This document shows, piece after piece, positions 1-40,940 of a stretch of 45,778 nt of DNA. The translations under genes and the position numbers were made by a program. Source of the DNA: Candidatus Rifleibacteriota bacterium (GTDB taxonomy: Bacteria; Riflebacteria; Ozemobacteria; Ozemobacterales; Ozemobacteraceae). A model generated the notes under the pieces. The model was not told the origin of the DNA. It ran no database searches and saw only the letters and a list, made by a program, of their open reading frames with translations. How positions within the stretch are numbered: position 1 is the stretch's first letter; each line of letters starts with the position of its first letter. The DNA is taken from positions 1-45,778 of the forward strand of contig JAKQKW010000169.1 of NCBI GenBank assembly GCA_029560455.1, given 5' to 3'.

Positions 1-1055
1 GCCTTGACCTGATCGATAAAATAACGGTTCTGTTCGAGACTGCCGACGCTGACGCGCAGGCAGTTCTTTAACAGCCGATGCGCGCCGACGTCGCGAATGG
101 CGATTTCGTTATTCTTAAGATGTTCGAAGAGAGCGGCCGAACGCTCACCGGCACTGAAGGTCACGAAGTTGGTATGCGACGGGTATGATTTCAGGCCTTC
201 GATTCCCTGCATTTCTTCATAGAGACTCTTTTTCAGAGCAACCGCTTCGCGGGTATGGCGCAGAAACAGGTCTTTGTTCATCAGCATCGTCATGACGAAG
301 GTCTGCACCATGATGCTGGTGTTAAAGATCGTCTGCACCTTGCGCAGTTCGACAATATTCTGCGGCTGGCTGACAATATAGCCAAAACGCAGACCGGCCG
401 CCGAAAACGATTTCGAAAACGATCTGACAATCAGCAGATGACTGAAGTCTTTGATACGGTCGACCCAGGTGATACCACTGAATTCGAAATAGGTTTCGTC
501 GAGCAGCACAGGTTTGCGGGTGTTGTTGAGCACATAGAGAATCTTTTCGTCGCTGAGCAGGTGCCCGGTCGGGTTATTGGGGTTGCAGAGAATGCCGAGC
601 CGACAGTTATCCGAGTTGAGGATTTTCACATACTCTTTTTCATCAAAATCGAAGTCGGGCAGAAAGTCCATGAATCTGATTCCGAGACCGGCGGCCTGCG
701 AATAGGTCGAGTAGTCGAAATAAGACGGGGCAAGGGAAAGGGCGAACGCGTCATTGTTCTCGCGCACCGCCAGAAAGGCGGCAAACAGCATGTCGTCGGC
801 GCCATTGCCCCAGAGAAGGTTTTCACCGGTAATACCGTGCCCGACGTAGTCTACGAGCAGCTTTTTGAGTTCAGAGGTAACGCCGCTGAAATAGCGGTTG
901 AGATGCACCTGCTGCATATTCTGATGAAAAGCTTCGTCGATCGTCTGATATGGGTCGAGAACGCTTTCGTTCAGGCACATCATATTTTTTTTACGGGGTA
1001 CGGAAATATCAGCCGGCGGGCCGGCCTTGAGCAGATCGGTTCTGAACAGGGTCAT
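1..1055 (-). CDS. hisC: Histidinol-phosphate aminotransferase, partial (C-terminus beyond window edge)
   Basis: A PLP-dependent fold-type I aminotransferase of the HisC family, which converts imidazole acetol phosphate and glutamate to histidinol phosphate in histidine synthesis. I translated this frame by hand, because it runs off the left edge without a stop. It shows CNPNNPTG, then DETYFEF (the PLP aspartate and tyrosine), then RSFSKSFSAAGLRFGY with the Schiff-base lysine, and a terminal LRVSVGSLEQNR that matches the C-terminal substrate-carboxylate arginine region of HisC. The start is ATG at 1055, preceded by an AGGAAAGGA ribosome site. An upstream ATG at 1080 is in another frame. No other his gene is visible. 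The last residues are outside the window. Cobyric-acid-type or other class I/II aminotransferases are a less likely alternative. Confidence 0.9.
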   Translation of the reverse strand, partial: MTLFRTDLLKAGPPADISVPRKKNMMCLNESVLDPYQTIDEAFHQNMQQVHLNRYFSGVTSELKKLLVDYVGHGITGENLLWGNGADDMLFAAFLAVRENNDAFALSLAPSYFDYSTYSQAAGLGIRFMDFLPDFDFDEKEYVKILNSDNCRLGILCNPNNPTGHLLSDEKILYVLNNTRKPVLLDETYFEFSGITWVDRIKDFSHLLIVRSFSKSFSAAGLRFGYIVSQPQNIVELRKVQTIFNTSIMVQTFVMTMLMNKDLFLRHTREAVALKKSLYEEMQGIEGLKSYPSHTNFVTFSAGERSAALFEHLKNNEIAIRDVGAHRLLKNCLRVSVGSLEQNRYFIDQVK

Positions 1056-1090
1056 GAAGAAGTCCTTTCCTGCAAGCCATTTTTACACAC

Positions 1091-1119
1091 ATACTAGCAG
1101 GCTTTATGTTACAATTCAA
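1091..1119 (-). promoter_or_regulatory. Predicted sigma70-type promoter of hisC
   Basis: On the minus strand, TTGAAT at 1119-1114 is followed by a 17-base spacer and then TAGTAT at 1096-1091, which is preceded by TGC (an extended -10). It lies about 35 bases upstream of the hisC ATG. Spacing and both hexamers fit a housekeeping promoter. Predicted by eye only. Confidence 0.6.
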
Positions 1120-1165
1120 TAAATCCGGGCGAGCTCACAGGCACGACTCAATCCCGGTTTGACTT

Positions 1166-1230
1166 AGATTCCAGCCTGCGCGGTAATGACAGATGCATTT
1201 CCCGTCATTCCGGGTGCAGACCCGGAATCT
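1166..1230. repeat. REP-like imperfect palindrome in intergenic DNA
   Basis: A 65-base block whose ends are exact inverted copies (AGATTCC at 1166-1172 and GGAATCT at 1224-1230). The inner arms GTAATGAC and GTCATTCC nearly pair, and a small CCGGGT/ACCCGG hairpin lies inside the right arm. The wording (ATTCC...GGAATGAC) is of the kind found in dispersed intergenic palindromes. It could act as a transcript-stabilising or terminating structure between two divergent genes, but no second copy was identified in this window. Confidence 0.55.
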
Positions 1231-1283
1231 CAGGAGTTTAATGCGACTACTTCACAATAAAACATCAGACAGGAGCGGATTTT

Positions 1284-2801
1284 ATGGCCCGAACACGTAA
1301 AGCGAACGATGCACCCGGCTGCGGCTTTTACCTGCTTTTCGCTCTTGTCATGATCGCCCAGCTTTTTTCTGACAAGGCTGAAGAACCTCGACGCGAAGCC
1401 GACGGCCGACCGGTCGAACCGGCGATTGCGCTGATAAAATACCATTCAGATGAAGAACTTGTCGGATTGCAAAGAAATGGCCGCCTTTCAGGCGTTATCG
1501 ACCCGCAGACAAAGCGAACCGCCATGCACGTAGCGGCAGCGCTCAATCGTCACCAGGTTCTCAGAATGTTGATCGACAGCAAAGAGAATGTCAGCGCGCG
1601 CGACAAGAATCAGGTTACACCGCTGCACCTCGCCCTCGAAAGCCAGGCGTCAGAATCGGTGCAGATATTGATGCAGGCTGGCGCTGACGTTACGGCGGTC
1701 ACCCGCAACGGTTACAGCATTCTGCATCATGCGGCCCGCTACGGCTTCTACGACGTAGCCAAAGCTGCTCTCAAGGCCGGCGTAAAACCTTCGATCGAAG
1801 CATACGGCGGCTTCACCCCGCTGCACTACGCCGCTCGTGAGAATCATCTGCGCATCGCGGTTCTTCTCGTCGAAAACGGGGCTGATATGAATGCACGAAT
1901 CAGCTACGGCTGGACCCCTGGCGATCTGGCCTTCAGCAAAAGCGAGCCGATCACGAATTATCTGCAGAGCAAGGGCGCTAACTTCTCAAAAGGAACCATT
2001 ATCGTCGAATTCAACCTGGTAAATGGCTGGCCTTTCTTCAGTCAACAGGAAATCATCGCGATACCCGACAGTAATGACCCGCTTTTTCGGGCTATCGATG
2101 CTGATTCACCCTCACAGCTCGCGGAACTCGAAAGCCATAGTGCCGATCTGAAGAAGAAAAGCCCGGCCGGCACTCCGCCCATTTGTCTGGCAATAGCAAA
2201 TAGCAAATTGCAGGCCGCTGAATATCTTTTAAAAAAGGCACCCGACCTTAACTCAACCGACGCGAACGGCAAAAACGCTCTGCTTTACGCGATCGAATAC
2301 CGGCACGAAGAATTCGCACGCCAGATTCTGCAGAAAAAGCCGGATCTTGCACACGCCGACAAATCGGGCAATACCGCCCTGCATTATGCCCTTGCCAACA
2401 GCCAGAATGCTCTTGCAGCCGAGCTGATAAACCGTGGCGCCGATATCTTCGCCGTAAACAATTTTTCCCGCGGCATGATTCATATCGCCAGCGAAAATTC
2501 GAACTCGATGATGTTTGAAGTGCTTATCAGCAATGGCTGCGACGTGAACCAGGAAGACGTAAACGGCAATACGCCTCTGCATCTGGCCGTCAAAAATGAC
2601 AATATCCCCATGATTTCAGCTCTGCTTAAAAACGGGGCCGACTTTGCGGTCATCAATAACCGGGGCAAGACCGCCCTGCAGCTGGCAAACTCTCAGGCAG
2701 CACGTAATCTGCTCAGCAATCGTTTCGAGATCGAAGGACAGAATCCTGCAGACAAACAGCTTCCCGCTGAAGTTAACATTCTGCCGCAGGCATCAAACTG
2801 A
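1284..2801 (+). CDS. Membrane-anchored ankyrin-repeat protein, first gene of the cyclase operon
   Basis: 505 residues. After a short basic N-terminus, one hydrophobic segment (about residues 13-29) acts as a membrane anchor or uncleaved signal. The rest is ankyrin repeats in two blocks (about 70-235 and 265-490), with typical TPLHLAL, TPLHYAA, TALHYAL and TPLHLAV motifs. Ankyrin repeats bind proteins and no catalytic domain is visible. ATG at 1284 has AGGAG eight bases upstream. Its TGA ends at 2801, directly against the first possible start of the next gene, so it is very probably translated together with cyclases A1, B1, A2 and B2. That suggests a scaffold or regulatory partner for those membrane cyclases, which is inference from position only. 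Whether the repeats are cytoplasmic or periplasmic is not settled by the sequence. Confidence 0.88.
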   Translation: MARTRKANDAPGCGFYLLFALVMIAQLFSDKAEEPRREADGRPVEPAIALIKYHSDEELVGLQRNGRLSGVIDPQTKRTAMHVAAALNRHQVLRMLIDSKENVSARDKNQVTPLHLALESQASESVQILMQAGADVTAVTRNGYSILHHAARYGFYDVAKAALKAGVKPSIEAYGGFTPLHYAARENHLRIAVLLVENGADMNARISYGWTPGDLAFSKSEPITNYLQSKGANFSKGTIIVEFNLVNGWPFFSQQEIIAIPDSNDPLFRAIDADSPSQLAELESHSADLKKKSPAGTPPICLAIANSKLQAAEYLLKKAPDLNSTDANGKNALLYAIEYRHEEFARQILQKKPDLAHADKSGNTALHYALANSQNALAAELINRGADIFAVNNFSRGMIHIASENSNSMMFEVLISNGCDVNQEDVNGNTPLHLAVKNDNIPMISALLKNGADFAVINNRGKTALQLANSQAARNLLSNRFEIEGQNPADKQLPAEVNILPQASN

Positions 2802-5800
2802 TTGGCAATGCTGTCGCAGAATTTTCAGACCGGGGAGCTGCAACAGCTGCGCCCCAAACCCTTCAGCCTTGAGCACCTGCTTCTGTTCTGGTTTCTAGCT
2901 CTTTTTCTTCCGTCTCTGGCGATCTTCGGGCTTCTCAATTTCTCTGTTCAGCAGCAGCGGGAAACCGCCAGGGCAGACCTTGCCGACCGGCTTCTCGATG
3001 CCTATGACACATTGAATAAAACCTGTGAGCCTGGTGCATGGCTGATCAACCAGATTGAAATGGCCGAAGAAATAGCCGGCCTGCCGCCAAAAAATGCAAA
3101 ACTGCTGCCGGCGGCAAACCTGGGTGATTCGGCAGGCAAACATCTGAACCGTCTGTTTTCCCGCATCAGAAGTCACGAAATGCTGCTACTGATGACCGCC
3201 GGAACCGATCTGCAGAACCTTGAAGTATTCACCGATCCGGTCAAAGCCCCTGATTTTCCGAGGCCTGGCCTGAGAGCGGCCCGCGAGATCCTTGGAGAAC
3301 TGCTGAAGCAGCATGGCGGCAAGCCCCAGACAAGTTCCGGCAAAAGCGGCCGTAAGATTCTGAAAAGCTTCATCATCTCAACCTTCGGCACTTACCTTGA
3401 CCCGGTTGACGCAGACGAAGACTTCACTTGCGGTTTCAGCGAGAAAAGCGGCATGAACCGCCTGCGCACTGCCAGACGACTGGTCAAAGATGCGCATGGC
3501 AAAGTGATTTTCAGCTATATTGCACTCTTTCGTGAAACAGACAGTTCTCTGGCACACAGCTTTGCTCTCGCCAGGAGAAACCTGGCCCAGTCAGGGCTGG
3601 CCGCAAGAATGGTGCTTAAACCAGCGCGGCCGTTCCCGTTTATTCACACAACAGCAGACAATCGTCTGAAACTGGTTGGTCCGTTGAACATAAACCTTCT
3701 CACTTCAGGTATTTTCAGACAGAAAGACCAGATCAGCGACCTGCTGAACCGCGGAATCATGTCATACAGGCCGGCACTATACCCGCATTTCGAGATTATG
3801 GCTATGCCGGATTCACATGATGATCAGTTCACAGCCGTCAGGCCCGGGTTCATCATCTTTCTTTTTCTCTGTCTGACACTGCTGGCGCTTAGAAGTTTTC
3901 ATCAACACGGCAATCTGAGGGTCAATATCCGCACACGGCTGTTTCTCTCAGTTCTTCTGGCAACGGTGCTGCCAGTTGCAATCTTTGTGTTTTATACGCA
4001 TCGACACCTGAACCTTGAACTGCAGCGAAGGCAAAGCCAGATGGGCCTGAAACTGAAAAGCCATCTGCAGCAACTCGAACTGGCGATCAAAGCCGGCGAT
4101 CAGAACCATTTTGCCGGGTTCAGTGATTTTATCAACCGCATGCGCGAAGTTGCCTGCAATACAGATGAAGAATACCTGAGAAAGTTCATCCAGACCGAGC
4201 TCGACCAGACATTTTCCGGAGCGGGGCTGCTGCGCAATGACGGCCTTATTCTGGAGTTTCTCGATTATAACAAGGTTTATGTCATCAAACTCGAAAAGAA
4301 ACTCAGTCTGACAAGAGAATTCATGTATGCCTCGATTATCAGGTTTTTTCAGCTGACCGGCCTGATGCCTGAGAGTCTGCACAAAAATCTGCAGAGCACA
4401 TCACGCGGCAAAAAACTGCTGGCCATGTCAGAAATTTTCCCGGCCATCGATATCGATAATTTCTGCAGTTACGAAGGCACCGCCCAGACATCAAAGCAGG
4501 ACTTCGGCAATTTCAGGATGATGAGCTACAAGATCCTGCCTCCCACAGCAGCAGGTGAAGAACGAAAGGGTGCGGTTCTGCTGCTTATTCAGGATATTCG
4601 CGAACTCGCCCACCTTATTGTGCAGCAATTAACCGAACGCTGGCGGGTATTCAGACAGGAAACAGAGGAAGGACTCATTGAAAGCCAGATCGTCAGTTCC
4701 TTCGATATGAACAGTTCAAGTCTCGACCTCAGCAAAGTCTGGCCAGAGGGGCAAAAACCCGGCATTGAGCAGCTGCGGGTTGCAGAACTTCTCACTGACG
4801 GCAGGGCCGAAGCTGAAATCAGACTCGAAGATAAAGACGGCACCCCGATTCTTATCAGCGGCCGAAAAATAGCAGGTTACCCGCTGATTGCAGTTGCGAG
4901 TTGCCGCATGAGCAGAATTTCTCAACAGCGTTCTCTTGCTGTCGGCATTATCGGAGCGAATATTGTCTACATCCTTATGCTTCTGATCATGCTGGTAAGC
5001 ATACTCTCAGAACTGTTCAATCCGCCGATTGACAGGCTGCTGACCGCCGCCAGGCTCACCGGTGAAGGGATGCTGGTAAGAATAAGCAACAGCTTCAGCA
5101 ACGAGCTTTCGCTACTGACAAATGAGTTCAACCACATGAGCCAGCACATACGCGAGCGAGAGCGTCTGGAAAGGTTTATCTCGCCTGAGGCGACCCGGAC
5201 TATAGTTTCTGAAAGCCGGACGCGCAGTGAGATTTTATCGCAGAAAGTCAGACGCAGCATAGTTTTTACGCACATCCGTCATTTCAGTGAACTAAGCACA
5301 TCTCTAAGCCCGGAACAGCTTTTTCAGATGCTGGACCTGTATTTTCCCTTTGTAGAAGCTGAAATAATCGCTGCCGGCGGCCAGATCGACAAATATATCG
5401 GCGATGCCATCATGGCGATTTTTGCTGATGAAGAGGGTGATTCGTCAGCCAGAAGAGCGTGCAACGCCATGATCAGAGTCGCCAGGCGGCTGCCGGAATT
5501 TAACCGGGCCCTGCAACAGCGAGGGCTTCCCGAAATCATGCCTGGAGCAGGCATTTCAACCGGCGAAGTCATTTCGGGCCGGATCGGCTCATACCAGGGT
5601 CGTCTTGACTATACGGTCATCGGCGACCGGGTTAACCTGGCAGCCAGACTCGAAGCCTCATCACATTTCGATCATAAATGCCATATTCTTACAGACAGCG
5701 AGACTATGGAGGCCGCGGGCAAAGAGATCACTGCCAGGTTCCATGGCGAAATAAAAATCAAAGGAAAGGCACTGCCGGTGAAGACCTATGAAGTCGTCTA

Positions 5801-5804
5801 CTGA
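2802..5804 (+). CDS. Membrane class III cyclase A1 (C2-like half, first metal Asp replaced by His)
   Basis: 1000 residues. Layout: TM1 (~24-48), first periplasmic region, TM2 (~348-365), TM3 (~379-400), second periplasmic region, TM4 (~711-737), HAMP-like linker (~738-795), class III cyclase domain (~817-1000). In the catalytic domain the first metal ligand of FxDI is His824 (VFTHIRHF, codon CAC at 5271), while the second, Asp868 in KYIGDAIMA, is kept. The base-contact Lys864 and Thr938 (DYTVIGD, the class IIIb form) and the transition-state Asn945 and Arg949 are present. Alone it should be weak or inactive. It is complementary to B1, whose start overlaps its end by 17 bases. The periplasmic regions match no domain I recognise but share GLLRNDG- and DNFC-type motifs with A2. 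The start is TTG 2802 or ATG 2808; neither has a strong ribosome site, consistent with coupling to the ankyrin gene. Confidence 0.9.
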   Translation: MAMLSQNFQTGELQQLRPKPFSLEHLLLFWFLALFLPSLAIFGLLNFSVQQQRETARADLADRLLDAYDTLNKTCEPGAWLINQIEMAEEIAGLPPKNAKLLPAANLGDSAGKHLNRLFSRIRSHEMLLLMTAGTDLQNLEVFTDPVKAPDFPRPGLRAAREILGELLKQHGGKPQTSSGKSGRKILKSFIISTFGTYLDPVDADEDFTCGFSEKSGMNRLRTARRLVKDAHGKVIFSYIALFRETDSSLAHSFALARRNLAQSGLAARMVLKPARPFPFIHTTADNRLKLVGPLNINLLTSGIFRQKDQISDLLNRGIMSYRPALYPHFEIMAMPDSHDDQFTAVRPGFIIFLFLCLTLLALRSFHQHGNLRVNIRTRLFLSVLLATVLPVAIFVFYTHRHLNLELQRRQSQMGLKLKSHLQQLELAIKAGDQNHFAGFSDFINRMREVACNTDEEYLRKFIQTELDQTFSGAGLLRNDGLILEFLDYNKVYVIKLEKKLSLTREFMYASIIRFFQLTGLMPESLHKNLQSTSRGKKLLAMSEIFPAIDIDNFCSYEGTAQTSKQDFGNFRMMSYKILPPTAAGEERKGAVLLLIQDIRELAHLIVQQLTERWRVFRQETEEGLIESQIVSSFDMNSSSLDLSKVWPEGQKPGIEQLRVAELLTDGRAEAEIRLEDKDGTPILISGRKIAGYPLIAVASCRMSRISQQRSLAVGIIGANIVYILMLLIMLVSILSELFNPPIDRLLTAARLTGEGMLVRISNSFSNELSLLTNEFNHMSQHIRERERLERFISPEATRTIVSESRTRSEILSQKVRRSIVFTHIRHFSELSTSLSPEQLFQMLDLYFPFVEAEIIAAGGQIDKYIGDAIMAIFADEEGDSSARRACNAMIRVARRLPEFNRALQQRGLPEIMPGAGISTGEVISGRIGSYQGRLDYTVIGDRVNLAARLEASSHFDHKCHILTDSETMEAAGKEITARFHGEIKIKGKALPVKTYEVVY

Positions 5805-8760
5805 TCAGGTTCTGCTCAACATACGCCGCAGCACCTTCATGAAAATTGCCCCGGTTCTGCTGTGGCTGGTGGCCGTTTTCATTCCGGCTCTTGTGGGCCG
5901 CAATCTTTATTTTGCCACTTTAAAAGAACAACAGGAGCAGTTCGCCGCCATGGGGCAACATCAGCTGATGACCCGCGCCAGAGAGCTCGATGCCCGACTT
6001 CATCCTGAGCAGCTTCTAAAAAAACAACTTAATCTGAGCTATTACACGCGCGCCTACGACATGGCTGTTCTCAAAAACAACCCTTCGACGCTTGCCAATT
6101 CGCCAATCGGTAAATCACTGCCTGATTTTTCCGGCGATATTGCAGAACAGCTCGCGTCTTTCAGTCGCACTCTGGAGTTCGAAACAGGCATCAGGCCCGT
6201 TTTTGTTGCAGGTTTAAACCCTGACCCGGCAAAATGCGGGCTGTTTTTGCGTGATGAGCCAATGCCGGCACCTGAGCAGTTACGGGAAATCCGGCAGGAA
6301 TTCGCCGAGATGTGTCTTTTTCTCAATTCAAGAGCAAATTTCCGGGAAAACGAACCCGCTGAACTTAAAACCTATGCGCCATTCAATTTTTTCAGTCAGT
6401 TTCTCGAAATTTTCGACCATTTCAACACCCATTTCTGGAGTCTGCATGGCTCATTTTCCGCCCGCTACCGCGAACGTCTTTATATAGTCAGCATGCGCCC
6501 GCCTTTCCCACCGGGGCAGGGCAACAATATCATAACCGGCATACTGATAAGCCATCTCGACCCGACGACGGTGATCACACGAGCTTGCCGCGACATGTCA
6601 GACAGTGAAATTTCAATTACCTGGGGTCAGGCTGAACCAACCGAACTGCCGAAATTCATCGAAGAAAATGGCGATATCTCGATGATAACAAGACTTTCTG
6701 AGCAGTTCCGGGCATCTTTCAACCGTCCAGGCTCAACTGACCAGCTGAACCGTGCGGCGGTCAAACTCACTGTTTCCGGAAAAACCAGGCAAAAACATCT
6801 GCGTGAACATGCAACTCATATAGACCTCGGCCTGCTGATTTTTCTGTCGTTCAGTTTTCTGCTTGGGGCCGGCACCAGTCTCGGGCAGATGAAACTGCGT
6901 ACCAGTCTGGCCAGACTCATTACTGTCGCCTTTTTTGTCAGCATGTTTCTGCCACTGACCGGGCTGGCATGGCTTGCCGCCGCCAATTCAAGCAACGCCC
7001 GTGATTCTGAATCCCGCCAGATAACGCGACAGATAAGACAGATATTGCGTCAGAGCGAAACGGCGTTTCGTCTGCAGCGATACCGCCAGCAACTGCTTAT
7101 GTTCCATATCAGCCATATAATTGCACATCTTTCGCCTGAAAAATGGGGGGATTATGTCGACCGTTTCTTCTTCAACGACAAGTATTCCCGTTTCAAAGCC
7201 CATTTCGATAATTTTTATCTTTACTCAGCCACACATGACAGGGATTATTTTCGTGGCCAGAAGCCGGAAGAACGTTTTCGTAAGAATGAACTGCCGAATG
7301 TTCTTTCTGGAGCCTTTCGGCGGGCCCTGATGTTTACCGACGCCTTTGCTCACATGTCAGATGCCGGCCGACGCAAGGTAGCTCAGATGGCTGATTTTTC
7401 GAGCGGCGTCATGGAAGAACTCGTTGACGACAAGTTTTTTAACGGTCTTCTCGGTAGCCCCGGAGAATTGAACAACGCTACACTGCTGGCCAGGCGCGAC
7501 CTGTTGACGATATTCTTTCTCAAGGGGCCGCAGCAGATGATGGGCATTCTCTGTCTGGTAACCAATAACCTTCTGCCAATGCAGATTATTGACGAAATCA
7601 ACGCCCGTGGCAGCTTTAAAAACAAGTTTACACTTGACGGTTATCGTGTCGAAATCGACTTTTACGCGATCAGCGAGTTCTATGAGCGCAGCCTCAGAGG
7701 GCGTTGGCGTGGCTATGCCGACGTAAATCCGCCAATCATGACATTAGAAGCTGCCGACGCCCTTTACAGCAATTCTGATACGAGTGTGGTCAATAGCCTT
7801 CAGCTCGACGACCCACATCTTCTGGTTACTGAAACCATGCTTGAAAGGTCAATTTTTGCCGTTGCCAGGGCCAGGCCACTGCACAACGGCAGCAGGCAAT
7901 ACAGCGGTGCCGGACTTCTTGCCTTCCTGGCCCTGTTGAGCTGCCTGACACTTGCCACCGGCATCTCACGCCTGATTCTGCTGCCGGTTCCACCATTCCT
8001 TGAAGCCATCAGAGCAATTGAAGAAAACCGGCATGACTGGCTGCTCGACCTCAATACCGGTGATGAATTCGACCATCTTGCCATTTCGATGAATGAAATG
8101 AACCTTAAACTGCTCGAAAGGCGAAAAATGCTGCAGCTGGTCTCGCAGACAGCAGCTGAAGCGGTTAAAACCGGCAACACACAGGAAGCACCCAGGCGGC
8201 GCTGTGCAACCATCCTTTTTTCTGACATCAGAGGCTTTACGACCATCAGCGAAAACCACAGCGCCGAAGAGGTCGTCGCCATGCTCAACGATTATTTTAC
8301 GCTGATGTGCCCAATAATCGAAGCGAATGGCGGCCATATCGACAAACTGATCGGTGATGCCATCCAGGCCGTCTTTTTGTCTGAAGATGAGGAAATTCGG
8401 GCAATATCTGCAGCCAGAGCCGCACTTGAAATGCGCCACCGGCTTGCGGAATTCAACGCGGCCAGAGCGGCGGCCGGGCAGTTCGCGATAACCAACGGCA
8501 TTGGCATTGCAACTGGCCAGGTTACCACCGGGGTTACCGGCTCAAATACCGGAAAACTCGAAGCGGCCATCATCGGCGAACCTCTGCAGCTGGCCGCCAC
8601 CCTTGAGTCATATAGCAAGTTTGCAGCCAATACCTGCATAATCATTGATCCGGCAACAGAAAACCTGCTGAAAAATCGCGCCAGAGTGGTATCATTAGAC
8701 GTGCCTGAAATATCACAGAAAATGTCAATCCACGAGCTGCAGGAACTAATCGATGCCTGA
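5788..8760 (+). CDS. Membrane class III cyclase B1 (C1-like half, transition-state Asn and Arg lost)
   Basis: 990 residues with the same plan as A1: TM1 (~19-42), periplasmic region, TM2 (~349-366), TM3 (~376-398), periplasmic region, TM4 (~708-732), HAMP-like region with GDEFDHLA (~735-785), cyclase domain (~803-990). Both metal aspartates are intact: Asp813 in LFSDIRGFT and Asp857 in KLIGDAIQA, with Lys853. The usual DYTVIGDxVNLAARLE block has become EAAIIGEPLQLAATLE, so the IIIb Thr is Ala927, the transition-state Asn is Gln934 (CAG at 8587) and the Arg is Thr938 (ACC at 8599). It should supply metals but not stabilise the transition state, the mirror image of A1. The gene overlaps A1 by 17 bases and A2 by 8. 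ATG 5788 is used; a second Met 17 codons later lies just before TM1 and lacks a ribosome site. Confidence 0.9.
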   Translation: MKSSTDQVLLNIRRSTFMKIAPVLLWLVAVFIPALVGRNLYFATLKEQQEQFAAMGQHQLMTRARELDARLHPEQLLKKQLNLSYYTRAYDMAVLKNNPSTLANSPIGKSLPDFSGDIAEQLASFSRTLEFETGIRPVFVAGLNPDPAKCGLFLRDEPMPAPEQLREIRQEFAEMCLFLNSRANFRENEPAELKTYAPFNFFSQFLEIFDHFNTHFWSLHGSFSARYRERLYIVSMRPPFPPGQGNNIITGILISHLDPTTVITRACRDMSDSEISITWGQAEPTELPKFIEENGDISMITRLSEQFRASFNRPGSTDQLNRAAVKLTVSGKTRQKHLREHATHIDLGLLIFLSFSFLLGAGTSLGQMKLRTSLARLITVAFFVSMFLPLTGLAWLAAANSSNARDSESRQITRQIRQILRQSETAFRLQRYRQQLLMFHISHIIAHLSPEKWGDYVDRFFFNDKYSRFKAHFDNFYLYSATHDRDYFRGQKPEERFRKNELPNVLSGAFRRALMFTDAFAHMSDAGRRKVAQMADFSSGVMEELVDDKFFNGLLGSPGELNNATLLARRDLLTIFFLKGPQQMMGILCLVTNNLLPMQIIDEINARGSFKNKFTLDGYRVEIDFYAISEFYERSLRGRWRGYADVNPPIMTLEAADALYSNSDTSVVNSLQLDDPHLLVTETMLERSIFAVARARPLHNGSRQYSGAGLLAFLALLSCLTLATGISRLILLPVPPFLEAIRAIEENRHDWLLDLNTGDEFDHLAISMNEMNLKLLERRKMLQLVSQTAAEAVKTGNTQEAPRRRCATILFSDIRGFTTISENHSAEEVVAMLNDYFTLMCPIIEANGGHIDKLIGDAIQAVFLSEDEEIRAISAARAALEMRHRLAEFNAARAAAGQFAITNGIGIATGQVTTGVTGSNTGKLEAAIIGEPLQLAATLESYSKFAANTCIIIDPATENLLKNRARVVSLDVPEISQKMSIHELQELIDA

Positions 8761-11704
8761 CGGGTCACAGCTGAAAACAATCAGCCCGGCGCGGCCGGAA
8801 ACCGGCAATCTGCTGGTATTCTGGCTGTTCGTCTTTGTTCTGCCGGCAGTCTGCTGCAGATTTTTCCTGAATGTTTACATCGAAGCCGATACCGGCAAGA
8901 CCATGCTGACAGCCTCACACATATTGCGTGAAGAAATCGAAAGTTTCAGCCACGACCTCAGTCTTGAAACACTTCTCAGCACAGGCATAGAAAAAGCAGT
9001 CGGCGACCTGAGAGCTACAGATATGCCTGCGACAATCAGTGACTCACCTGAGACAATCAGCCGGTATCTTTCTGAATCAATAGGCAACAACTGCGGGATT
9101 AAGCCAATTTTCTGCGGCATCATGCGTCTTTCTGACCGAAAAACCGGCGGATCAGCCACCGCCTTGTCACCGATCAATCCTGGCCGTAAATCCATTGCAG
9201 TTATCATGCAGCACCTTTTTCCAGATCCGACTGGCTCCGAAAAAGACTCAAGTAAACTTTTTCCGGCAGTAGCAAAAACCGTATTCGGTAACTATCTCAC
9301 CCTGGCAGACCGGTCTGACGTTTTTGCCAGTGGTTTTTTCTGCAAAAATGACACTGATCGAATGTTGCTTTTCCACAGTCGTTTTAAAAATCACTCAAAT
9401 GGCCTTAATTACGCCTTTCTGCTTGTATTTTCAGAGAATTCAATCTCCCCTCAGCAGCTGTTTGATTTTGCCAGAAAACGCACCAGATCAAAAGATTCCA
9501 GACGCGGCTATGCAATGCTCAGGACCATACCAGAAAGAGACTTTTTCATGACAGCTGAAGACAGACTTGTCTGCGTTGCACCGGTCGACCCTGCAGCCCT
9601 GCGCATCGGTTCTCACAAAGGGCAAAGCTGGTATGACCGCAGCATCAGCTCAGGCACAGCAGCGCAAAAACCTTCGCAGTTGCCATACCTGCTTGTCAGC
9701 AGAGAATTCAAAGGTTCATCTCTGAAACTCTATCTGCCGCAAATCAGCCTGCTACTACTGCTGTTCGCGTTTTCAGGAGTAGCACTGGTCAGGCAATATC
9801 TATCAGGTAACCTGCCCCCTTCTCCCCTGCATCAGCGGTTTAAAGTTGCCATTCTTGCGGCAACCCTTCTGCCATTTGCTGCATTCATTCTGACTTCGAT
9901 TGAATTTATCGAACACTTCAACCGGGTCACCATTTCAGCCCAGACTCAGAATCTGGTCAGCGACCTGCAGATGCTTGAGTTCAACATTCTCAACCACGAC
10001 CTGCAGGAGCAACGCGCCACATCGCAATTTGTGAAACAGCTTCGTAAACAGAGCACACAAAGCCGCGAAGTCATTCATCAGATGCTCAAGAGTAAAATAG
10101 GCATACTTTACGAAGGTTATGGTTTTTTACGCAGCGATGGGCTTTTTCTCGAACAACTCCCTGATACGAGAGACATTTCCGTCGACGACATTAACAAATT
10201 CCGTGTGGCACAGGAAATCAGTTTCGGTCAGCTATACAACATCTTCGAGTTTGTCGGAGCCATGCGCCCCGATTTTGCAGAGAACATAGAAGAAAAGACC
10301 GCCCTTGCAAAATGGAAGGCATTCAGCGTTCACCTGAACGAAGTCGACCGCGACAGCTTCTGCTGCACTGACGGTCAGTATTTCATGTCACGCAATGCCG
10401 ACAAGAACTATTTCCGGTTATCTTTTCACCAGCTCTTCCCCGACAAGAACAAGGCAGAACCATGGGCTGGAGTTACATTTATAAAAAATGTGCGCAACAC
10501 CATTGAGCACTATCTTGAAACTCAGAATCAGCACGGAATATTTTTCTACAGTCGAGACCAGATGCTTTTTCAATCAGCTGTTTTCCGCTGTCAGGAAAAT
10601 TCAACGGAAATCGACCAGTCGGTAGCATGGCCATTGTCAGCTTTGCGTGAAAAAGACATGATAGAAGCAACCAGAAAACCCGATCAGACAGAGAAAGAGG
10701 CTAGCTGGGTTACAAGAGACAACAACGGCATTATCAGTATTTTTGCCGTAAGAGCTATGGCTGAACTGCCGTTCGTTCTCGTCTCAAAGTGTCTGATAAG
10801 CACTCTGGCGATAAACGAGCAACTGTTCAGGGTAGCCGGCCTGCTGCTGATCCCCTACGCCCTGCTGCTTCTGGCAGTCCTAAGTTCCCTTCTGGCAGAG
10901 GTCTTTCTCAAGCCTATCAATCTGCTTATAGATGGCAGTTATCAGCTTGAGCAGGGGCATTTTCCGATAATTGATTTCCGGTCTGAAAACGAGCTCGGCA
11001 CTCTTGTTGAACACTTCAATACAATGTCTGAAGGAATGAAGCAGAGACAAAGACTGCAACGCTTCGTCTCCGAAGAAGTCTCAGACTCAATAAGCCTCGA
11101 AGCGATGACGATGCAGGAGTCTCTGGGCAAACTCGTTTACCGGGTTATCGTTTTTATACATATCCGTGATTTTACCAGCCTGTGTGAGAAAATCGAGCCA
11201 GAGTCGGCAATCTCGCTGCTCAACCGCTATTTTTCGACCTTTGAGCCCTGCCTGAAAAATAACCGGGGGCAGATTGAAAAATACATAGGCGACGCAATTA
11301 TGGTCAGTTTTTCACCGGAAAATTGCGACGATAGCCCCTCATTCGCCGCATGCGCTGCAGCCCTGTCATGCCTCGCAGCTTTGCCACAGCTGAATCGAAA
11401 TTTGTCAGACACCAGCCTGCCGAAAATAAAAATCGGCATTGGTATTGCCGCCGGCAATGTTATCAGGGGCAAAATCGGGGCCAGGCAAAGCCGAAAAGAC
11501 TTCACTCTGATCGGCGACCCGGTAAATCTTGCTGCCAGACTCGAAACCAATTCACATTTTGACAGCCAATCGCATATACTGATTGACAATGAGACCGCAA
11601 AAGCGGTTGAGGCCAGTTTCATTACCCACCTGCATGGCAATCTGGCCATAAAAGGCAAGAGTCAGCCGGTTTCAGTTTTTGAACTGAAGGGAGCCCTCAA
11701 ATGA
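8753..11704 (+). CDS. Membrane class III cyclase A2 (C2-like half, first metal Asp replaced by His)
   Basis: 983 residues, a paralogue of A1. TM1 (~19-42), periplasmic region, TM2 (~331-347), TM3 (~364-385), periplasmic region, TM4 (~691-718), HAMP-like linker with SENELGTL, cyclase domain (~796-983). The first metal ligand is His803 (VFIHIRDFT, codon CAT at 11159), the same substitution as in A1. Asp847 (KYIGDAIMV), Lys843, Thr918 (DFTLIGDPVNLAARLE), Asn925 and Arg929 are kept. The second periplasmic region shares GFLRSDGLFLE and DSFC motifs with A1. ATG 8753 has AGGA eight bases upstream and overlaps the end of B1 by 8 bases. The end overlaps B2 by 4 bases (ATGA), so A2 and B2 are probably made in equal amounts. 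Expected partner: B2, or B1 by cross-pairing. Confidence 0.9.
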   Translation: MPDGSQLKTISPARPETGNLLVFWLFVFVLPAVCCRFFLNVYIEADTGKTMLTASHILREEIESFSHDLSLETLLSTGIEKAVGDLRATDMPATISDSPETISRYLSESIGNNCGIKPIFCGIMRLSDRKTGGSATALSPINPGRKSIAVIMQHLFPDPTGSEKDSSKLFPAVAKTVFGNYLTLADRSDVFASGFFCKNDTDRMLLFHSRFKNHSNGLNYAFLLVFSENSISPQQLFDFARKRTRSKDSRRGYAMLRTIPERDFFMTAEDRLVCVAPVDPAALRIGSHKGQSWYDRSISSGTAAQKPSQLPYLLVSREFKGSSLKLYLPQISLLLLLFAFSGVALVRQYLSGNLPPSPLHQRFKVAILAATLLPFAAFILTSIEFIEHFNRVTISAQTQNLVSDLQMLEFNILNHDLQEQRATSQFVKQLRKQSTQSREVIHQMLKSKIGILYEGYGFLRSDGLFLEQLPDTRDISVDDINKFRVAQEISFGQLYNIFEFVGAMRPDFAENIEEKTALAKWKAFSVHLNEVDRDSFCCTDGQYFMSRNADKNYFRLSFHQLFPDKNKAEPWAGVTFIKNVRNTIEHYLETQNQHGIFFYSRDQMLFQSAVFRCQENSTEIDQSVAWPLSALREKDMIEATRKPDQTEKEASWVTRDNNGIISIFAVRAMAELPFVLVSKCLISTLAINEQLFRVAGLLLIPYALLLLAVLSSLLAEVFLKPINLLIDGSYQLEQGHFPIIDFRSENELGTLVEHFNTMSEGMKQRQRLQRFVSEEVSDSISLEAMTMQESLGKLVYRVIVFIHIRDFTSLCEKIEPESAISLLNRYFSTFEPCLKNNRGQIEKYIGDAIMVSFSPENCDDSPSFAACAAALSCLAALPQLNRNLSDTSLPKIKIGIGIAAGNVIRGKIGARQSRKDFTLIGDPVNLAARLETNSHFDSQSHILIDNETAKAVEASFITHLHGNLAIKGKSQPVSVFELKGALK

Positions 11705-14688
11705 GAGAAAACGAAACCGGGCTTAGCATTAACCGACAGTCTGCCAGCAGTTTCACCTACCTTCTTCTCTGGCTTCTGCTTATCCTTTTTCCGGTAATTG
11801 TCGCCAGATTCATTTTTGCTGCGGCAATGACCATGGAAAAACAGCTTGCAGACTCAAGAATGCGACAGAAGTTCAACATCGAACTGAAAAAATACGAGAC
11901 GGCACTCGAACCTCGGCACTGGATTCGCCACGCCCTGCAGGCAGACGATTTTGACCAGATCATTCATAAATTATATAAAGGCGAAGCGGGAGCCAATGAG
12001 TATCTTCGCCACCCGTTTATTGCATCTATTGGTCATATTGGCAACACCCCTGCTCAGAACATAGAACTCTTCTCAAAACAATTCAGGCGTTTTACCGGTA
12101 CGGTTCCTGACATCGTTATCGTGATTGCATCTGACCCGGCACAGTGCAGCTGGCAAATCAGAACTCCATTCGCGCAGCCGCAGAGCGATCAGCAACTGCG
12201 GCAAATTCTTGTTCAAAGCTGGAAAAGACTATCAGAGCGGCATAAAAAGAATCTGGAACAGGTTCCGGACTTCATTCGCCATGTCAGTAAAGACCGCGAA
12301 CTCAGTCGGATTTTTGGCATCTTCGACTTTGTTTCGACCAGCCTTGGGCTCGCCAAATCGCATTTTTCAACAGCCAACAACAGTGAGATGTTTATCAGCC
12401 TGCTGCCAATGCCAGATTCAAGCGGCAGACTCGATCACAGATTCATCCTCTCAGCCGTCTCAGCTGCAAGCCTGAATCCGGAATTCATGTTGAAAACAAC
12501 CTGTCATAGATTCAGCAACGCCTTCTCTAAACACAGTTTTGGCACCACATCGTTGAGCACTCTGCCCAGATTCGTCGAAACAGCAGGCAAACTCGCCCTG
12601 ATAGGTTCAACCCCTGAATCTTTCAGGAAATTGGCCTGGAAACACATAGAAAACAGCCAGACACTCCTGGCGATCAGCATTTCTGACGCAAGGCAGACAA
12701 ATTCAGAGACGCTGAAAATGCTGGTCAGCACTATTCTCCTCGCCTATTCTCTCGCCATGACAATGGCAATGGCAGGAATCATCTCTGGTCGTATCAAAGG
12801 CGTGCAAAACATTCAAAAAATAGTCGCAGCAGGCCTTTTTGCCGGCATGCTTCTGCCGCTCAGCGGCTCGATCTGGTTCGGTATCTGTTATCTGAACACC
12901 AGCAAACATCTTGAAGCAGAAGACGTGCTCGACCACATGCGCAATACCGCTTTTATCACCGATCAGGCTGTAAAAAACCAGATAACGCGAAATGTTCTTT
13001 TTCGTAATCTGTTCACCGCAATTCTTTCTGACTGGCAACCGGATCAGCTGAAAAAAATCAATACCCGAACCGGTTTTTTCGCCGAAGAAGGCGGAGAAGA
13101 GCCCGGAAAAAAACATCTGCGCCTGATGGACATGCTTGATTCTTACATTTTTTACCACCCAGACCTTGATGACATTGTTGGCATGGGAACTAACAGACAG
13201 AAAATTACCGAAACGCCATATCTTTTTGTCGGCATTCACGCCAGAAACATGCTGTATCAGCTGGGTGCCATGAACCACCTGCCGCCGGAGAAAATCAACC
13301 ATGTTCTCAATAAGTCCCAGTATATGGTGGGTTTCCTAGATAATGTTGTCGACAATCGACTTATTTCAAAAGCCTTTGCTGAAGAAAAGGCCCCTGTTCC
13401 CAACTCCATGAGCACCAGACGCGAGCAATTGACCACATCCTTCTGGCGTGATGTTAAGGGCAAAGTCAAGGGTATTTCAATTCTTCAGACCGATTCTGGG
13501 TGCTGGGTTTATGACTTCAGCGAATTCATAGAGAGAGGCCTGGTCAGGCAGGTGTTTTCGCATAACGGCTATCGCATCTTTCTCAATCTTTATCTCAGAC
13601 AGTCTTACAACCACCGGCGTCTCATCGACCAGTCGGTTAAAACCAGTATTCACAACAATCTATCCTGGCGGCAACTATGGCCTCTGGCCGAAGCTCTTTA
13701 CTCCTTCGGAGATTCGGTTCGCATCAACAATCTCGATGCTCCTGATCCGCACCTGCTTTTTACCACCCCCGCGGTCAACGGCGATGTCTGGATAATGGCT
13801 TATGCCAGGCCAGAAGGTCGGGGAAAAAGTGTATCTGGCTCGACAGGCCTGCTGTTGCTGGCAACTTTGGCCGCTCTCTGCGGTCTGGTTCTCGCCAGAG
13901 GTCTGAGCCGTGTTCTGTTACGACCGATTCCGGCGCTCGAAGAAGCTGTTGCCCATCTGGGTCGTCAGAACTTCAATTTTCGCCTGCAGATAAACAACGG
14001 CGACGAATTCGATCAACTGGCGACCGCATTCAATAAGGCATCCCGCAAGCTTTTCGAAAAACAACAGCTGAGTCAGCTTGTTTCGAGAAACGTGCTCGAC
14101 GCAATTTCGCAGGATGACGAACATCTGCTGAAACCTGGTGGCAGCCGTGTCAGGGGCAGCATACTGTTTTCTGATATCCGTGGCTTTACCAACATTTCTG
14201 AAAAATACCCACCCGAAGAGGTTGTCGCCATGCTCAATGATTACTTCAGTCGCATGGCTGACTGCATCGAAGGCAACGGCGGTCTGATCGACAAGCTTAT
14301 TGGCGATGCAATTCAGGCAGTTTTTTATGCCCACGAAAACGCCAATTGTGCTGAAAGTGCGGTCAAAGCAGGTCTGGCAATGCGCGCCGCCCTGCACGAA
14401 TTTAATTTCGACCGGCGGCAGAGAGGCCTTTTCACGATCGAAAACGGCGTCGGCATCTGCACTGGCAGCGTCATCAGCGGCCGGGTTGGCTCTGAACAGG
14501 GAATGCTCGACGCCACCGTAATCGGCAGTCTGGTCGGTCAGGCCGCCCAGCTCGAAGGCCGCAGTAAAACAGGCACCGCCAGCAGGGTAATGATTGACGC
14601 CACAACCAGCAGTGAACTGCCCGCATCTTATCAACGTCAGCATATCAGCTCAGACCAGCCCGAAGAAAATCTGATCGAAATGCTTTAA
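11701..14688 (+). CDS. Membrane class III cyclase B2 (C1-like half, transition-state Asn and Arg lost)
   Basis: 995 residues, a paralogue of B1. TM1 (~18-42), periplasmic region, TM2 (~340-361), TM3 (~375-398), periplasmic region, TM4 (~716-740), HAMP-like region with NGDEFDQLATAF, cyclase domain (~816-995). Asp825 (LFSDIRGFT) and Asp869 (KLIGDAIQA) bind metal, with Lys865 and Thr939 also kept. The catalytic block reads DATVIGSLVGQAAQLE: the transition-state Asn is Gly946 (GGT at 14536) and the Arg is Gln950 (CAG at 14548). B1 and B2 share both the cyclase motifs (EEVVAMLNDYF) and a DPHLL motif before TM4, so the A-B pair was probably duplicated as a unit. ATG 11701 follows AAGGGAG by seven bases. 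Last gene of the operon; no clear plus-strand terminator follows. Confidence 0.9.
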   Translation: MRENETGLSINRQSASSFTYLLLWLLLILFPVIVARFIFAAAMTMEKQLADSRMRQKFNIELKKYETALEPRHWIRHALQADDFDQIIHKLYKGEAGANEYLRHPFIASIGHIGNTPAQNIELFSKQFRRFTGTVPDIVIVIASDPAQCSWQIRTPFAQPQSDQQLRQILVQSWKRLSERHKKNLEQVPDFIRHVSKDRELSRIFGIFDFVSTSLGLAKSHFSTANNSEMFISLLPMPDSSGRLDHRFILSAVSAASLNPEFMLKTTCHRFSNAFSKHSFGTTSLSTLPRFVETAGKLALIGSTPESFRKLAWKHIENSQTLLAISISDARQTNSETLKMLVSTILLAYSLAMTMAMAGIISGRIKGVQNIQKIVAAGLFAGMLLPLSGSIWFGICYLNTSKHLEAEDVLDHMRNTAFITDQAVKNQITRNVLFRNLFTAILSDWQPDQLKKINTRTGFFAEEGGEEPGKKHLRLMDMLDSYIFYHPDLDDIVGMGTNRQKITETPYLFVGIHARNMLYQLGAMNHLPPEKINHVLNKSQYMVGFLDNVVDNRLISKAFAEEKAPVPNSMSTRREQLTTSFWRDVKGKVKGISILQTDSGCWVYDFSEFIERGLVRQVFSHNGYRIFLNLYLRQSYNHRRLIDQSVKTSIHNNLSWRQLWPLAEALYSFGDSVRINNLDAPDPHLLFTTPAVNGDVWIMAYARPEGRGKSVSGSTGLLLLATLAALCGLVLARGLSRVLLRPIPALEEAVAHLGRQNFNFRLQINNGDEFDQLATAFNKASRKLFEKQQLSQLVSRNVLDAISQDDEHLLKPGGSRVRGSILFSDIRGFTNISEKYPPEEVVAMLNDYFSRMADCIEGNGGLIDKLIGDAIQAVFYAHENANCAESAVKAGLAMRAALHEFNFDRRQRGLFTIENGVGICTGSVISGRVGSEQGMLDATVIGSLVGQAAQLEGRSKTGTASRVMIDATTSSELPASYQRQHISSDQPEENLIEML

Positions 14689-16929: not shown

Positions 16930-19020
16930 ATGAACAATACCGGTTTTCGTACATACAGACTGCAGGTCGTGGTCTTTTTCTCTTTTCTGGCGCTGTTTTC
17001 ATTGATAGTGGCCGGAATCGTCGTTTATGGCTATCGCAGCAATTCGGAAATCATGCTGCAGTCTTCTGATGAACTGCTGTATCAGATATCAGAAACGGTC
17101 ATCAGACAGACAAGCAACCATCTTGACCCGGCACGTAAAACCGGCACACTGCTGCGCAAAATGATCGAACGCGGCAATTCATTTTCAAAATCACCAGAGC
17201 TGGTAGAGACGATCAGCCTCGAAACCCTTGAGATCTATCCACAGTTTTCAGCTGTATATCTCGGCGATGAAAATGGCAATTTCATCATGTCACGCAGGCT
17301 CGAAGACGGCAATTTTTCGACGCGAATCATCTCGCGCACCAGTGAGCCTTCAGGTATGATCGAAATTGACCGCGACCAGCACTGGCAGATTATTGCAACC
17401 CGCAGCAGCTCGTTGCTCAGTTATGATCCGCGCGAGAGGCCCTGGTATGTACTTGCAAAATCTGAAGGAACAACAGTATGGAGCCGCGAGTACCGTTTGT
17501 TCACTGATCAGGTACCGGGCATCACCTGCGCTCATCCGGTATTCGACTTTGAAGGAAACTTTGTGGGCGCAGTAGGCATAGATTTCAGACTTTACGAACT
17601 CGCAGAATTTCTCAAAAGCCTTAAAATTGGCGAATCGGGTATTGCCTTTATTGCAGACAGCGAAGGAAATGTACTCGCCTACCCAGAAAAATCCGGAATC
17701 AGCCCGGACAATATCAGATCACCCCGATCACCAACCCGCGAAAGCCTTAAATCAGGCCCAATCAAGGCGGCGATCGAAAATTACCTCAACAGCGGCCAGT
17801 TCAAGTTCACCATCGACCATGATGGCAACCGTTATGTTTCGTCGTTTCGGCCTTTTCCCGAGAATTTTGGCCGCGACTGGGTTCTTGGCATCATCGTTCC
17901 TGAAGATGACTTTATCGGGCCAATCGCCCGCATTCACGAAACCACCCTGCTCTTCTCATTCTGGCTGTTGATTATTGCCGGTTTTCTTACCTCGGCCATC
18001 GCCCGCGAGCTTACCGAACCAATAAAGCGACTGACCGCAGAAGCCGGCCGCATTCAGAATCTTGATTTTGACGGATCGATCGACCTGCGTTCGCCGATCA
18101 CAGAAATTCAACAGATGGGCGAAACCATGGATTCAATGAAAAAAGCGCTGGGTGCTTTTAAAAAATATGTTCCATCAGAAATTGTTCAGGGTCTGGTGCA
18201 CAGTCGTGACGAGGCAAGACTGCAGGCTCAGGCAGAAGAAATCACCCTGATGTTCACCGACATCAGCGATTTTTCGTCGATTACCGAACGGGTAGCGCCG
18301 GCTGAGCTCATGAAACAGCTGTCTGAATACTTCGACTGCATCGCTGCCGTCATCCATCGACACGGCGGCACGATCGACAAATATATCGGCGACTCGGTCA
18401 TGGCCTTCTGGGGTGCCCCGGCCCGCGACGCACGTCAGGCCGAACACGCCTGTGCCGCTGCCCTCGAAATTGAAGCAGCGATCAAAAAGCTCAACGCCCG
18501 CTGGTTAGCTGAAAACAGCGATCAACTCAAAACCAGAATCGGCATCAATACAGGCATTTCATTGATCGGCAATTTTGGCTCATCTGACCGCTTTAATTAC
18601 ACAGCCGTCGGCGACAGCGTCAATCTTGCCAGCCGGCTTGAAGGCCTCAACAAAATTTATGGTTCAGAAGTCATTGTCAGCGAATCTACAGTTGCCGTTG
18701 CCGGAAAAAGTTTCATTTTCCGACCGCTTGATCTGGTAGCGGTCAAGGGCCGCAAAAAGAGTGTCAGAATTTTTCAACTTCTCGGTCGAGCCGACGACCC
18801 GAAGGCAGAACTTTTCAAACACCTTGCACAGATGGCAGAAAAGGCGCTCGAAAGCTACCTGAACCGGCAGTGGCGTGAATCTTATGAACAGTTTCAGCAG
18901 ATACTCGACGTTCTGCCAGAAGATGCCGCTGCCGAAATGTATCTTACCCGCTGTCGCGAACTGCATGATCGCCCGCCCGGCCCAGACTGGGACGGCGTTT
19001 TCAGGGTTCTGCACAAATAG
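16930..19020 (+). CDS. Cache-HAMP class III adenylyl/guanylyl cyclase with C-terminal helical repeat tail
   Basis: 696 residues. TM1 (~12-33), periplasmic double-Cache-type sensor (~40-330, with DPRERPWY and GAVGIDF motifs), TM2 (~338-358), HAMP (~360-410), a KKYVPSEIV linker, then a complete class III cyclase domain (~437-600). All key residues are present: Asp444 (MFTDISDF), Lys484, Asp488 (KYIGDSVMA), Thr558 (class IIIb), Asn565 and Arg569. It should therefore work as a homodimer, unlike the six large cyclases. The tail (~625-696) looks like TPR helices and ends with a PPGPDWDGVFRV motif that recurs in the 38469 cyclase. ATG 16930 has AGGA seven bases upstream. Small organic ligands are usual for Cache domains; the ligand here is unknown. 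Cyclases of the Thr type usually use ATP, but that is inference. Confidence 0.93.
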   Translation: MNNTGFRTYRLQVVVFFSFLALFSLIVAGIVVYGYRSNSEIMLQSSDELLYQISETVIRQTSNHLDPARKTGTLLRKMIERGNSFSKSPELVETISLETLEIYPQFSAVYLGDENGNFIMSRRLEDGNFSTRIISRTSEPSGMIEIDRDQHWQIIATRSSSLLSYDPRERPWYVLAKSEGTTVWSREYRLFTDQVPGITCAHPVFDFEGNFVGAVGIDFRLYELAEFLKSLKIGESGIAFIADSEGNVLAYPEKSGISPDNIRSPRSPTRESLKSGPIKAAIENYLNSGQFKFTIDHDGNRYVSSFRPFPENFGRDWVLGIIVPEDDFIGPIARIHETTLLFSFWLLIIAGFLTSAIARELTEPIKRLTAEAGRIQNLDFDGSIDLRSPITEIQQMGETMDSMKKALGAFKKYVPSEIVQGLVHSRDEARLQAQAEEITLMFTDISDFSSITERVAPAELMKQLSEYFDCIAAVIHRHGGTIDKYIGDSVMAFWGAPARDARQAEHACAAALEIEAAIKKLNARWLAENSDQLKTRIGINTGISLIGNFGSSDRFNYTAVGDSVNLASRLEGLNKIYGSEVIVSESTVAVAGKSFIFRPLDLVAVKGRKKSVRIFQLLGRADDPKAELFKHLAQMAEKALESYLNRQWRESYEQFQQILDVLPEDAAAEMYLTRCRELHDRPPGPDWDGVFRVLHK

Positions 19021-32276: not shown

Positions 32277-32737
32277 AAAAACGGGGCTTTTCACTGCTCG
32301 AAATAATCATTGCCATGGCATTTCTGTCAGTGGCCATCCTCTCCATGTTCTGGATGAACCGGGCATCAAATCAGGGCTCCATGGACGCTTATTACGAATT
32401 TCTCGCGTTCTCGCTCGCCCGTGAACCAATCGAAGTTTTTCGTGGCTTTGGCTATGACTATCTTAAAATGATTGCCGACGGCAATATTTCGCCACCTGCC
32501 TGGTACCCGGTCGGCGTCATGAAGGATATCGAGTTCGACCTGATGTCAGACATGCAGTATCCGGCTGAAGCCAGGCTCTTTCAGCGACTGATCGAGCTGA
32601 CCCCGGTGACTGCAGGCAAACTGAAAGGCATGCTTATAAAGGTAACGGTGGCCGCGAAGGGGCAGAGTCGCGTCGAAGTCTGGATGAGCCGGAAGGCCGT
32701 TTCCCTTGAATCTCTGGTAATGGAGCGCCCAAAATGA
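32273..32737 (+). CDS. Prepilin-like protein (PilV/GspI type)
   Basis: 154 residues. Class III signal with predicted prepilin peptidase cleavage in KKRG/FSLLEI, Glu at mature position 5 and a hydrophobic stretch to about residue 25. The exported part is short and lacks cysteines. It overlaps both neighbours by 4 bases, so the three genes are translationally coupled. The pilus or type II secretion ATPase, platform and peptidase are not in the window. Role inferred: minor pseudopilin. Confidence 0.85.
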   Translation: MKKRGFSLLEIIIAMAFLSVAILSMFWMNRASNQGSMDAYYEFLAFSLAREPIEVFRGFGYDYLKMIADGNISPPAWYPVGVMKDIEFDLMSDMQYPAEARLFQRLIELTPVTAGKLKGMLIKVTVAAKGQSRVEVWMSRKAVSLESLVMERPK

Positions 32738-35343: not shown

Positions 35344-35363
35344 TTAACCATATTTTTTAAGAC

Positions 35364-40817: not shown

Positions 40818-40940
40818 CACAACCCTGATTTCTGTTTCGACGGCATATTCTACTCTGGCATACCGCATAAATACAAGCCCTGACAAAAATTTCACCCGCA
40901 GTATGAACTGGCTGGAATTTTCGGGTGAAGTGGTGGATTT

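Follow-up and report, generated by a model that had tools for sequence, protein, structure and literature searches.

The contig JAKQKW010000169.1 of Candidatus Rifleibacteriota bacterium (assembly GCA_029560455.1), whose 45,778 nucleotides were analysed as a whole and are called the window in the following, encodes six membrane cyclases of 961–1017 residues. They are arranged as three adjacent pairs, A1/B1, A2/B2, and B3/A3 (Table 1), and within each pair catalytic residues of class III cyclases are lost reciprocally. A1, B1, A2, and B2 are four consecutive genes of the plus strand which overlap by 17 (A1/B1, as already given in the initial annotation), 8 (B1/A2), and 4 bases (A2/B2); the overlap of B3 and A3 is 4 bases as well. 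All six proteins match the Pfam family Guanylate_cyc (PF00211) above the cut-off, with the C-terminal match covering residues 819–996 in A1 (2.2e-13) and residues 802–962 in B1 (1.8e-16). The B1 sequence is identical to a database protein named from Candidatus Ozemobacteraceae bacterium. A simple hydropathy scan predicts four widely spaced membrane segments in A1 and in B1, and each subunit has two segments of ∼300 residues between the membrane helices. A search for a sensor fold covered hardly any of the first extracytoplasmic segment of B1.

In the six-letter code used below the active-site residues are given in the order first metal-binding Asp, base-contacting Lys, second metal-binding Asp, base-contacting Thr, Asn, and Arg. 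In the alignment A1 reads HKDTNR and B1 reads DKDAQT. This agrees with the initial annotation, which had placed His824 at the position of the first metal Asp of A1 next to the retained Lys864, Thr938, Asn945, and Arg949, and which had described B1 as keeping Asp813 and Asp857 with Gln934 and Thr938 in place of Asn and Arg. Beyond this, the second metal Asp is still present in A1 (Asp868), and in B1 the base-contacting Thr is replaced as well (Ala927), with Lys853 being kept. The second site of the A1/B1 dimer, which had been called defective, indeed lacks four of the six residues, but Asp868 and Lys853 are still present. Similarly, the combination A1/B1 does yield a complete site, but it is not the sole one as had been claimed, since judged by residues alone A1/B2 and A2/B1 are complete too. 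Nor is A1/B1 a single case: the pair is real, but the residues are split reciprocally in A2/B2 and B3/A3 too, and splits of this kind occur widely in the phylum. Two ordinary cyclases of the window have retained all six residues, and thus the losses in A and B are not an artefact of the alignment.

Table 1. Cyclase genes, catalytic domains, and active-site codons in the window
Feature	Position	Strand	Description
A1	2802–5804	+	TTG start, 1000 residues, membrane receptor, C2-like (A) cyclase domain
A1 catalytic domain	5256–5795	+	codon positions counted from ORF start
A1 His824	5271–5273	+	first metal Asp position
A1 Lys864	5391–5393	+	base Lys
A1 Asp868	5403–5405	+	second metal Asp
A1 Thr938	5613–5615	+	base Thr
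A1 Asn945	5634–5636	+	Asn
A1 Arg949	5646–5648	+	Arg
B1	5788–8760	+	ATG start, 990 residues, membrane receptor, C1-like (B) cyclase domain
B1 catalytic domain	8206–8733	+	codon positions counted from ORF start
B1 Asp813	8224–8226	+	first metal Asp
B1 Lys853	8344–8346	+	base Lys
B1 Asp857	8356–8358	+	second metal Asp
B1 Ala927	8566–8568	+	base Thr position
B1 Gln934	8587–8589	+	Asn position
B1 Thr938	8599–8601	+	Arg position
A2	8753–11704	+	second A subunit, HKDTNR
B2	11701–14688	+	second B subunit, DKDTGQ
A3	22483–25536	-	third A subunit, AKGTNR, both metal Asp lost
B3	25533–28418	-	third B subunit, DQDTNE, upstream of A3
Internal control 1	16930–19020	+	ordinary dCache-HAMP class III cyclase, DKDTNR (all six residues)
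Internal control 2	38469–40895	-	ordinary GAF-GAF-PAS class III cyclase, DKDTNR (all six residues)

The best genome locus for an alignment of B1 and B2 was found in Candidatus Riflebacteria bacterium GWC2_50_8, and the phylum of this organism was surveyed. Matches to a B1/B2 profile occur in 39/39 genomes of the phylum. In six genomes the 328 listed PF00211 matches correspond to 226 regions, from which 112 regions containing a long frame or more than one match and 8 single regions were fetched first and 38 more single regions from two genomes later (158 of 226 regions). In total, 13 of the 39 genomes were covered at the residue level, seven of them in part. A domain was assigned to class A when Asn and Arg are kept and a metal Asp is lost, and to class B when both Asp are kept and Asn and/or Arg is lost; Lys and Thr were not used for typing. 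The window and the first-fetched regions of the six genomes contain 232 distinct domains, namely 91 A, 88 B, 41 complete, and 12 untypable domains, and none of the 232 has losses on both sides. Lys is kept in 91/91 A domains versus 54/88 B domains, and Thr in 91/91 versus 29/88. The 38 additional single domains comprise 32 complete and 4 untypable ones as well as 2 with losses on both sides, one per genome: L321 (G025 C2; ERGSAT, 775 codons) and L347 (G028 C175; ERGSAH, 744 codons). No other domain of this type was seen. Typed pairs number up to 19 in the genome of one relative.

When same-strand neighbours less than 3 kb apart were compared in the window and the six genomes, 71 B–A and 26 A–B junctions were found, and no A–A or B–B junction among these 97 typed neighbours. 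Under independent loss about half of the junctions would be unlike. The reciprocal pattern is far beyond chance, and orthologues with non-reciprocal losses, which the initial annotation had named as a refuting observation, did not turn up at any of the 97 typed junctions. A typed B domain adjoins 84 of the 91 A domains and a typed A domain adjoins 82 of the 88 B domains. One of the 7 A and 6 B domains without typed partner has a fused partner reading DKDSNR (G026 C14), and the others are located at contig ends or have a partner which is masked, cut, split, or unaligned at a key column. Only 2 of the 41 complete domains have a same-strand A or B domain within 3 kb. The metal residues of B together with Lys, Thr, Asn, and Arg of A form a complete site in 82/82 typed pairs and the other site is complete in 0/82; in this count Lys and Thr alone are an independent test, as Asp, Asn, and Arg follow from the class definitions, whereas reciprocity itself is tested independently by the 97/97 unlike junctions. 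In the typed pairs all residues for metal binding, base contact, and the transition state come together at a dimer interface only if A is combined with B.

In 24 typed pairs both domains are encoded in one open frame, and the order is B then A in 24/24. These frames have 1976–2141 codons, apart from one of 1593 codons which runs off its contig, and one and the same genome contains both separate-gene and fused versions. One fusion was used as query in a protein search, in which scoring was confined to the 7994 candidates with the most words in common, and 138 homologues were obtained. Among the 120 listed, 117 carry B and A in a single chain, two consist of the B domain only, and one has a truncated B domain. 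Where an organism group is named it is Riflebacteria, Rifleibacteriota, Rifleibacterium, or in one case 'uncultured bacterium', most entries being nameless. Lys and Thr are kept in 118/118 A domains of the listed homologues, and Lys in 119/119 B domains. These natural B–A fusions are separate evidence that the two domains would work together. In a template-free AlphaFold2 model of the fusion used as query, 372 residues can be superposed on human AC9 (2.6 Å), which exceeds one catalytic domain, and 357 residues on a single chain of 6yii from Pseudomonas aeruginosa. The A/B heterodimer fold is a prediction.

The A and B proteins might alternatively be inactive pseudo-cyclases which serve as homodimeric regulators binding nucleotides or other ligands and which are adjacent only as a result of gene duplication. 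In fact 6yii, which superposes on the fusion model, is titled only as an ATP-binding cyclase-like protein, and two unpaired domains do lack residues of both sides (ERGSAT and ERGSAH, see above). However, random decay would give same-side neighbours, which are absent from the 97 junctions; Lys and Thr would not be expected to persist in every A domain while drifting in B; and the fusion of one A with one B domain, in the same order in all 24 typed cases, would not be expected. We regard this explanation as improbable.

Still somewhat less probable is that catalysis is carried out by one partner alone, whose site has changed so that other metal ligands or substitutes for Asn and Arg are used, and that the other partner is regulatory only. 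Some class III enzymes tolerate substitutions, A1 has kept one metal Asp, and in the listed fusion homologues the replacements are conserved, with Lys for Asn in 102/119 B domains and Glu for the second Asp in 78/118 A domains. In the six-genome set, on the contrary, the first metal Asp of A is replaced by G, A, H, S, Q, R, K, or T and the Asn of B by 14 other residues. Such wide variation argues for relaxed constraint rather than for a new ligand.

Errors of assembly or sequencing, or recent pseudogenes in metagenome bins, are a further explanation. The named sources are metagenome assemblies, and a few members are cut at contig ends, masked, or contain a stop (G029 C26, C86). Nevertheless, the frames are open over ∼1000 or ∼2000 codons, and the same pattern recurs in the window, in six other assemblies, and in 117 of the 120 listed database proteins, and hence we consider this explanation hardly credible.

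In a FastTree phylogeny of 220 domains from which the six active-site columns had been removed, A and B require two changes each (shuffled mean ∼69), and thus the split is nearly single within these genomes. When other phylum members and control loci were added (364 domains), A required 8 changes and B required 5 (85 and 87 on average after shuffling) in a tree with several long branches. The A and B distances across pairs are correlated (r = 0.85, and 0.69–0.90 within each of five genomes), and this correlation was never reached in 2000 permutations. The matching distances suggest that the pairs were duplicated as pairs.

Reciprocal pairs were also found in other members of the phylum: G035 has 4/4 pairs, G036 one typed pair, G003 one pair, and G010 one fused pair of 2224 codons. 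Four further pairs of G036 and one of G010 have a partner which is unaligned at the column of the first Asp, and in the partner sequences inspected no Asp motif was seen at this place. The record of locus L004 in G035 is titled Candidatus Cloacimonadota; the genome falls within the Riflebacteria phylum group and has the same kind of pairs. The G003 pair (L304, C238, frames 794–3025 and 2994–5144, minus strand) consists of adjacent dCache cyclases with the reciprocal losses DKDSSR and KKDTNR. In the 364-domain tree it groups with complete cyclases and belongs to neither the A nor the B clade. Thus reciprocal loss apparently arose more than once, and the G003 pair apparently has a separate origin. 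In G040 (L299, C154) an A-like domain which has lost only the second metal Asp (DKGTNR) lies beside a complete cyclase; this arrangement is perhaps an early stage of the split. Five loci of nine matches were typed in G006 and all are complete.

As a control, 80 loci from many phyla which had been retrieved with the B1/B2 alignment were typed; their 86 domains comprise 83 complete and one untypable domain, and the only B and A domains are those of the Riflebacteria locus L001 itself. This control includes at least one other locus of the same phylum (L004), and the patterns used for selection are biased towards loci whose first Asp is intact, so that it tests mainly the loss of Asn and Arg. We also considered that the split might be generic to cyclase-rich bacteria and rejected this: of 163 matches in eight genomes, including G035, those listed were inspected by eye rather than by a residue survey, and among them the seven non-Riflebacteria genomes have only a single pair which lies on the same strand with less than 4 kb in between (G041 C4); both of its members are complete.

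How do the bacterial pairs relate to known cyclases? In the animal membrane adenylyl cyclases ADCY1–9 one domain carries the metal-binding residues and the other one the base-contacting and transition-state residues. The initial annotation had compared A1/B1 with this C1/C2 logic. The residue split does correspond, and the B–A order of the fusions is the C1–C2 order found in the single chain of ADCY1–9; A1 and B1, however, are two separate genes. In addition, ADCY1–9 have two six-helix bundles, whereas four widely spaced membrane segments are predicted for each bacterial subunit, with HAMP in most, and the base residue is Asp in ADCY1–9 but Thr in the bacterial A domains. Thr at this position is the bacterial IIIb style. 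The best solved relatives by sequence are the bacterial enzymes CyaB and Cya2 (1e-21 to 1e-23), the animal membrane enzymes reaching 1e-5 or weaker. Therefore, the likeness to ADCY1–9 is most likely convergent. The human soluble adenylyl cyclase ADCY10, by contrast, is soluble. In G032 two frames, L300 (C52, 493–5142, minus strand, 1550 codons) and L301 (C115, 920–5212, minus strand, 1431 codons), encode two cyclase domains followed by AAA, a layout which we take to resemble that of the human soluble enzyme. One of them has weak TPR (tetratricopeptide) repeats, and the first domain of L300 reads DKDLRA whereas Lys, Thr, Asn, and Arg are all present in its second domain.

Separately encoded heterodimers of two class III subunits, as in A/B, are described in excerpts of two papers for soluble guanylyl cyclase (sGC) alpha/beta and for the fungal rhodopsin cyclase-NeoR (PMC3591389, PMC8815786), and according to the former one site of sGC works, the other being a cavity in which key catalytic residues are missing. 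These enzymes are, however, eukaryotic, have other sensors, and are guanylyl cyclases. Other bacterial class III cyclases such as Rv1625c/Cya share the catalytic fold, and Rv1625c is also membrane-bound, but unlike A/B they are homodimers; in the excerpted part of a 2022 review (PMC9552081) bacterial class III cyclases are homodimers with two equivalent sites and fused dimeric species are unknown in bacteria. Likewise, none of the titles and abstract openings of the matches listed in our literature search names a membrane-bound class III cyclase of bacteria which is heterodimeric or fused. The initial annotation knew of no described bacterial operon of this kind. However, 6yii, for which the literature search gave no paper, has the PDB title class III adenylyl cyclase-like ATP-binding protein; tandem class III proteins of bacteria were thus apparently known already, and such domains are probably not wholly new. 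What is new, as far as the search shows, are paired and fused bacterial membrane receptors with one built site.

Taken together, we suggest that A1 and B1 are receptor subunits which very probably work only as a heterodimer with one complete site, predicted to make cyclic AMP (cAMP). Judged by their sequences A2/B2, B3/A3, the pairs of the relatives, and the B–A fusions have the same design. For the activity, product, and sensing of the pairs we infer that the A and B receptors would meet via their linked catalytic domains to give one competent site. B1 would bind two metals and the triphosphate via Asp813 and Asp857, and A1 would hold the adenine with Lys864 and Thr938 and stabilise the transition state with Asn945 and Arg949. 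Via HAMP-like linkers the heterodimer may join two different sensor inputs onto this one catalytic site. Lys and Thr at the base positions confer ATP (adenylyl) specificity, this IIIb-type base pair is present in all 91 A domains, and cAMP is the predicted product. There are 19 and 20 matches to cyclic-nucleotide-binding (cNMP-binding) domains in two genomes, which supports cAMP indirectly. In G025 (C1, 274142–274384) and G028 (C159, 25876–26112) a cNMP-binding gene is located on the strand opposite to a B/A pair, ∼1.1 kb upstream of its first gene, and is a candidate for a local effector. The pseudo-symmetric second pocket would very unlikely be catalytic, since residues are missing from both sides, and is probably a regulatory or merely structural cavity. 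An excerpt of PMC3591389 suggests a free second pocket for regulation in heteromeric animal enzymes.

Several observations weigh against such a strict heterodimer. Two pairs lie in one operon, and the sequence does not settle which A partners with which B. The unpaired L321 and L347 do not fit the pair rule. Arg is kept in five B domains and Asn in eight, four A domains keep the first Asp and have lost the second, and the fused B domain DKDSNR of G026 counts as complete, so that homodimer activity is possible for some members. The fused A domain of G010 reads AKGSNR with Ser for Thr. As the replacements in the fused family are not random, the second pocket is under some constraint and not simply decaying there, and a regulatory use would be possible. 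The trees would match even if linked genes had simply been duplicated together. The AlphaFold2 model represents a fusion from a relative, not A1/B1, and its predicted template modelling score is moderate. Whole-length Foldseek alignments to the animal enzymes have a root-mean-square deviation near 30 Å because the membrane and sensor parts differ.

Concerning the neighbourhood, the stop codon of an ankyrin-repeat protein gene (1284–2801) abuts the TTG start of A1, and an ATG follows two codons further on. The stretches 30201–33480 and 34495–35953 encode two proteins with pilin-type N-terminal methylation motifs, which adjoin a large protein of no family, followed by a FecR protein and an extracytoplasmic function (ECF)-type sigma factor.

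Paired and fused membrane cyclases are thus present in bacteria in large numbers. It appears quite probable that bacteria independently invented an animal-type membrane adenylyl cyclase: a metal half and a catalytic half encoded by paired genes and later fused in the C1–C2 order, with up to nearly 20 pairs in one genome and two inputs converging on one site. With the bacterial pairs and fusions one can directly test, outside the eukaryotes, how a homodimer turns into a heterodimer and then into a fusion and what the spare second pocket is used for, and an A/B receptor could integrate two signals.
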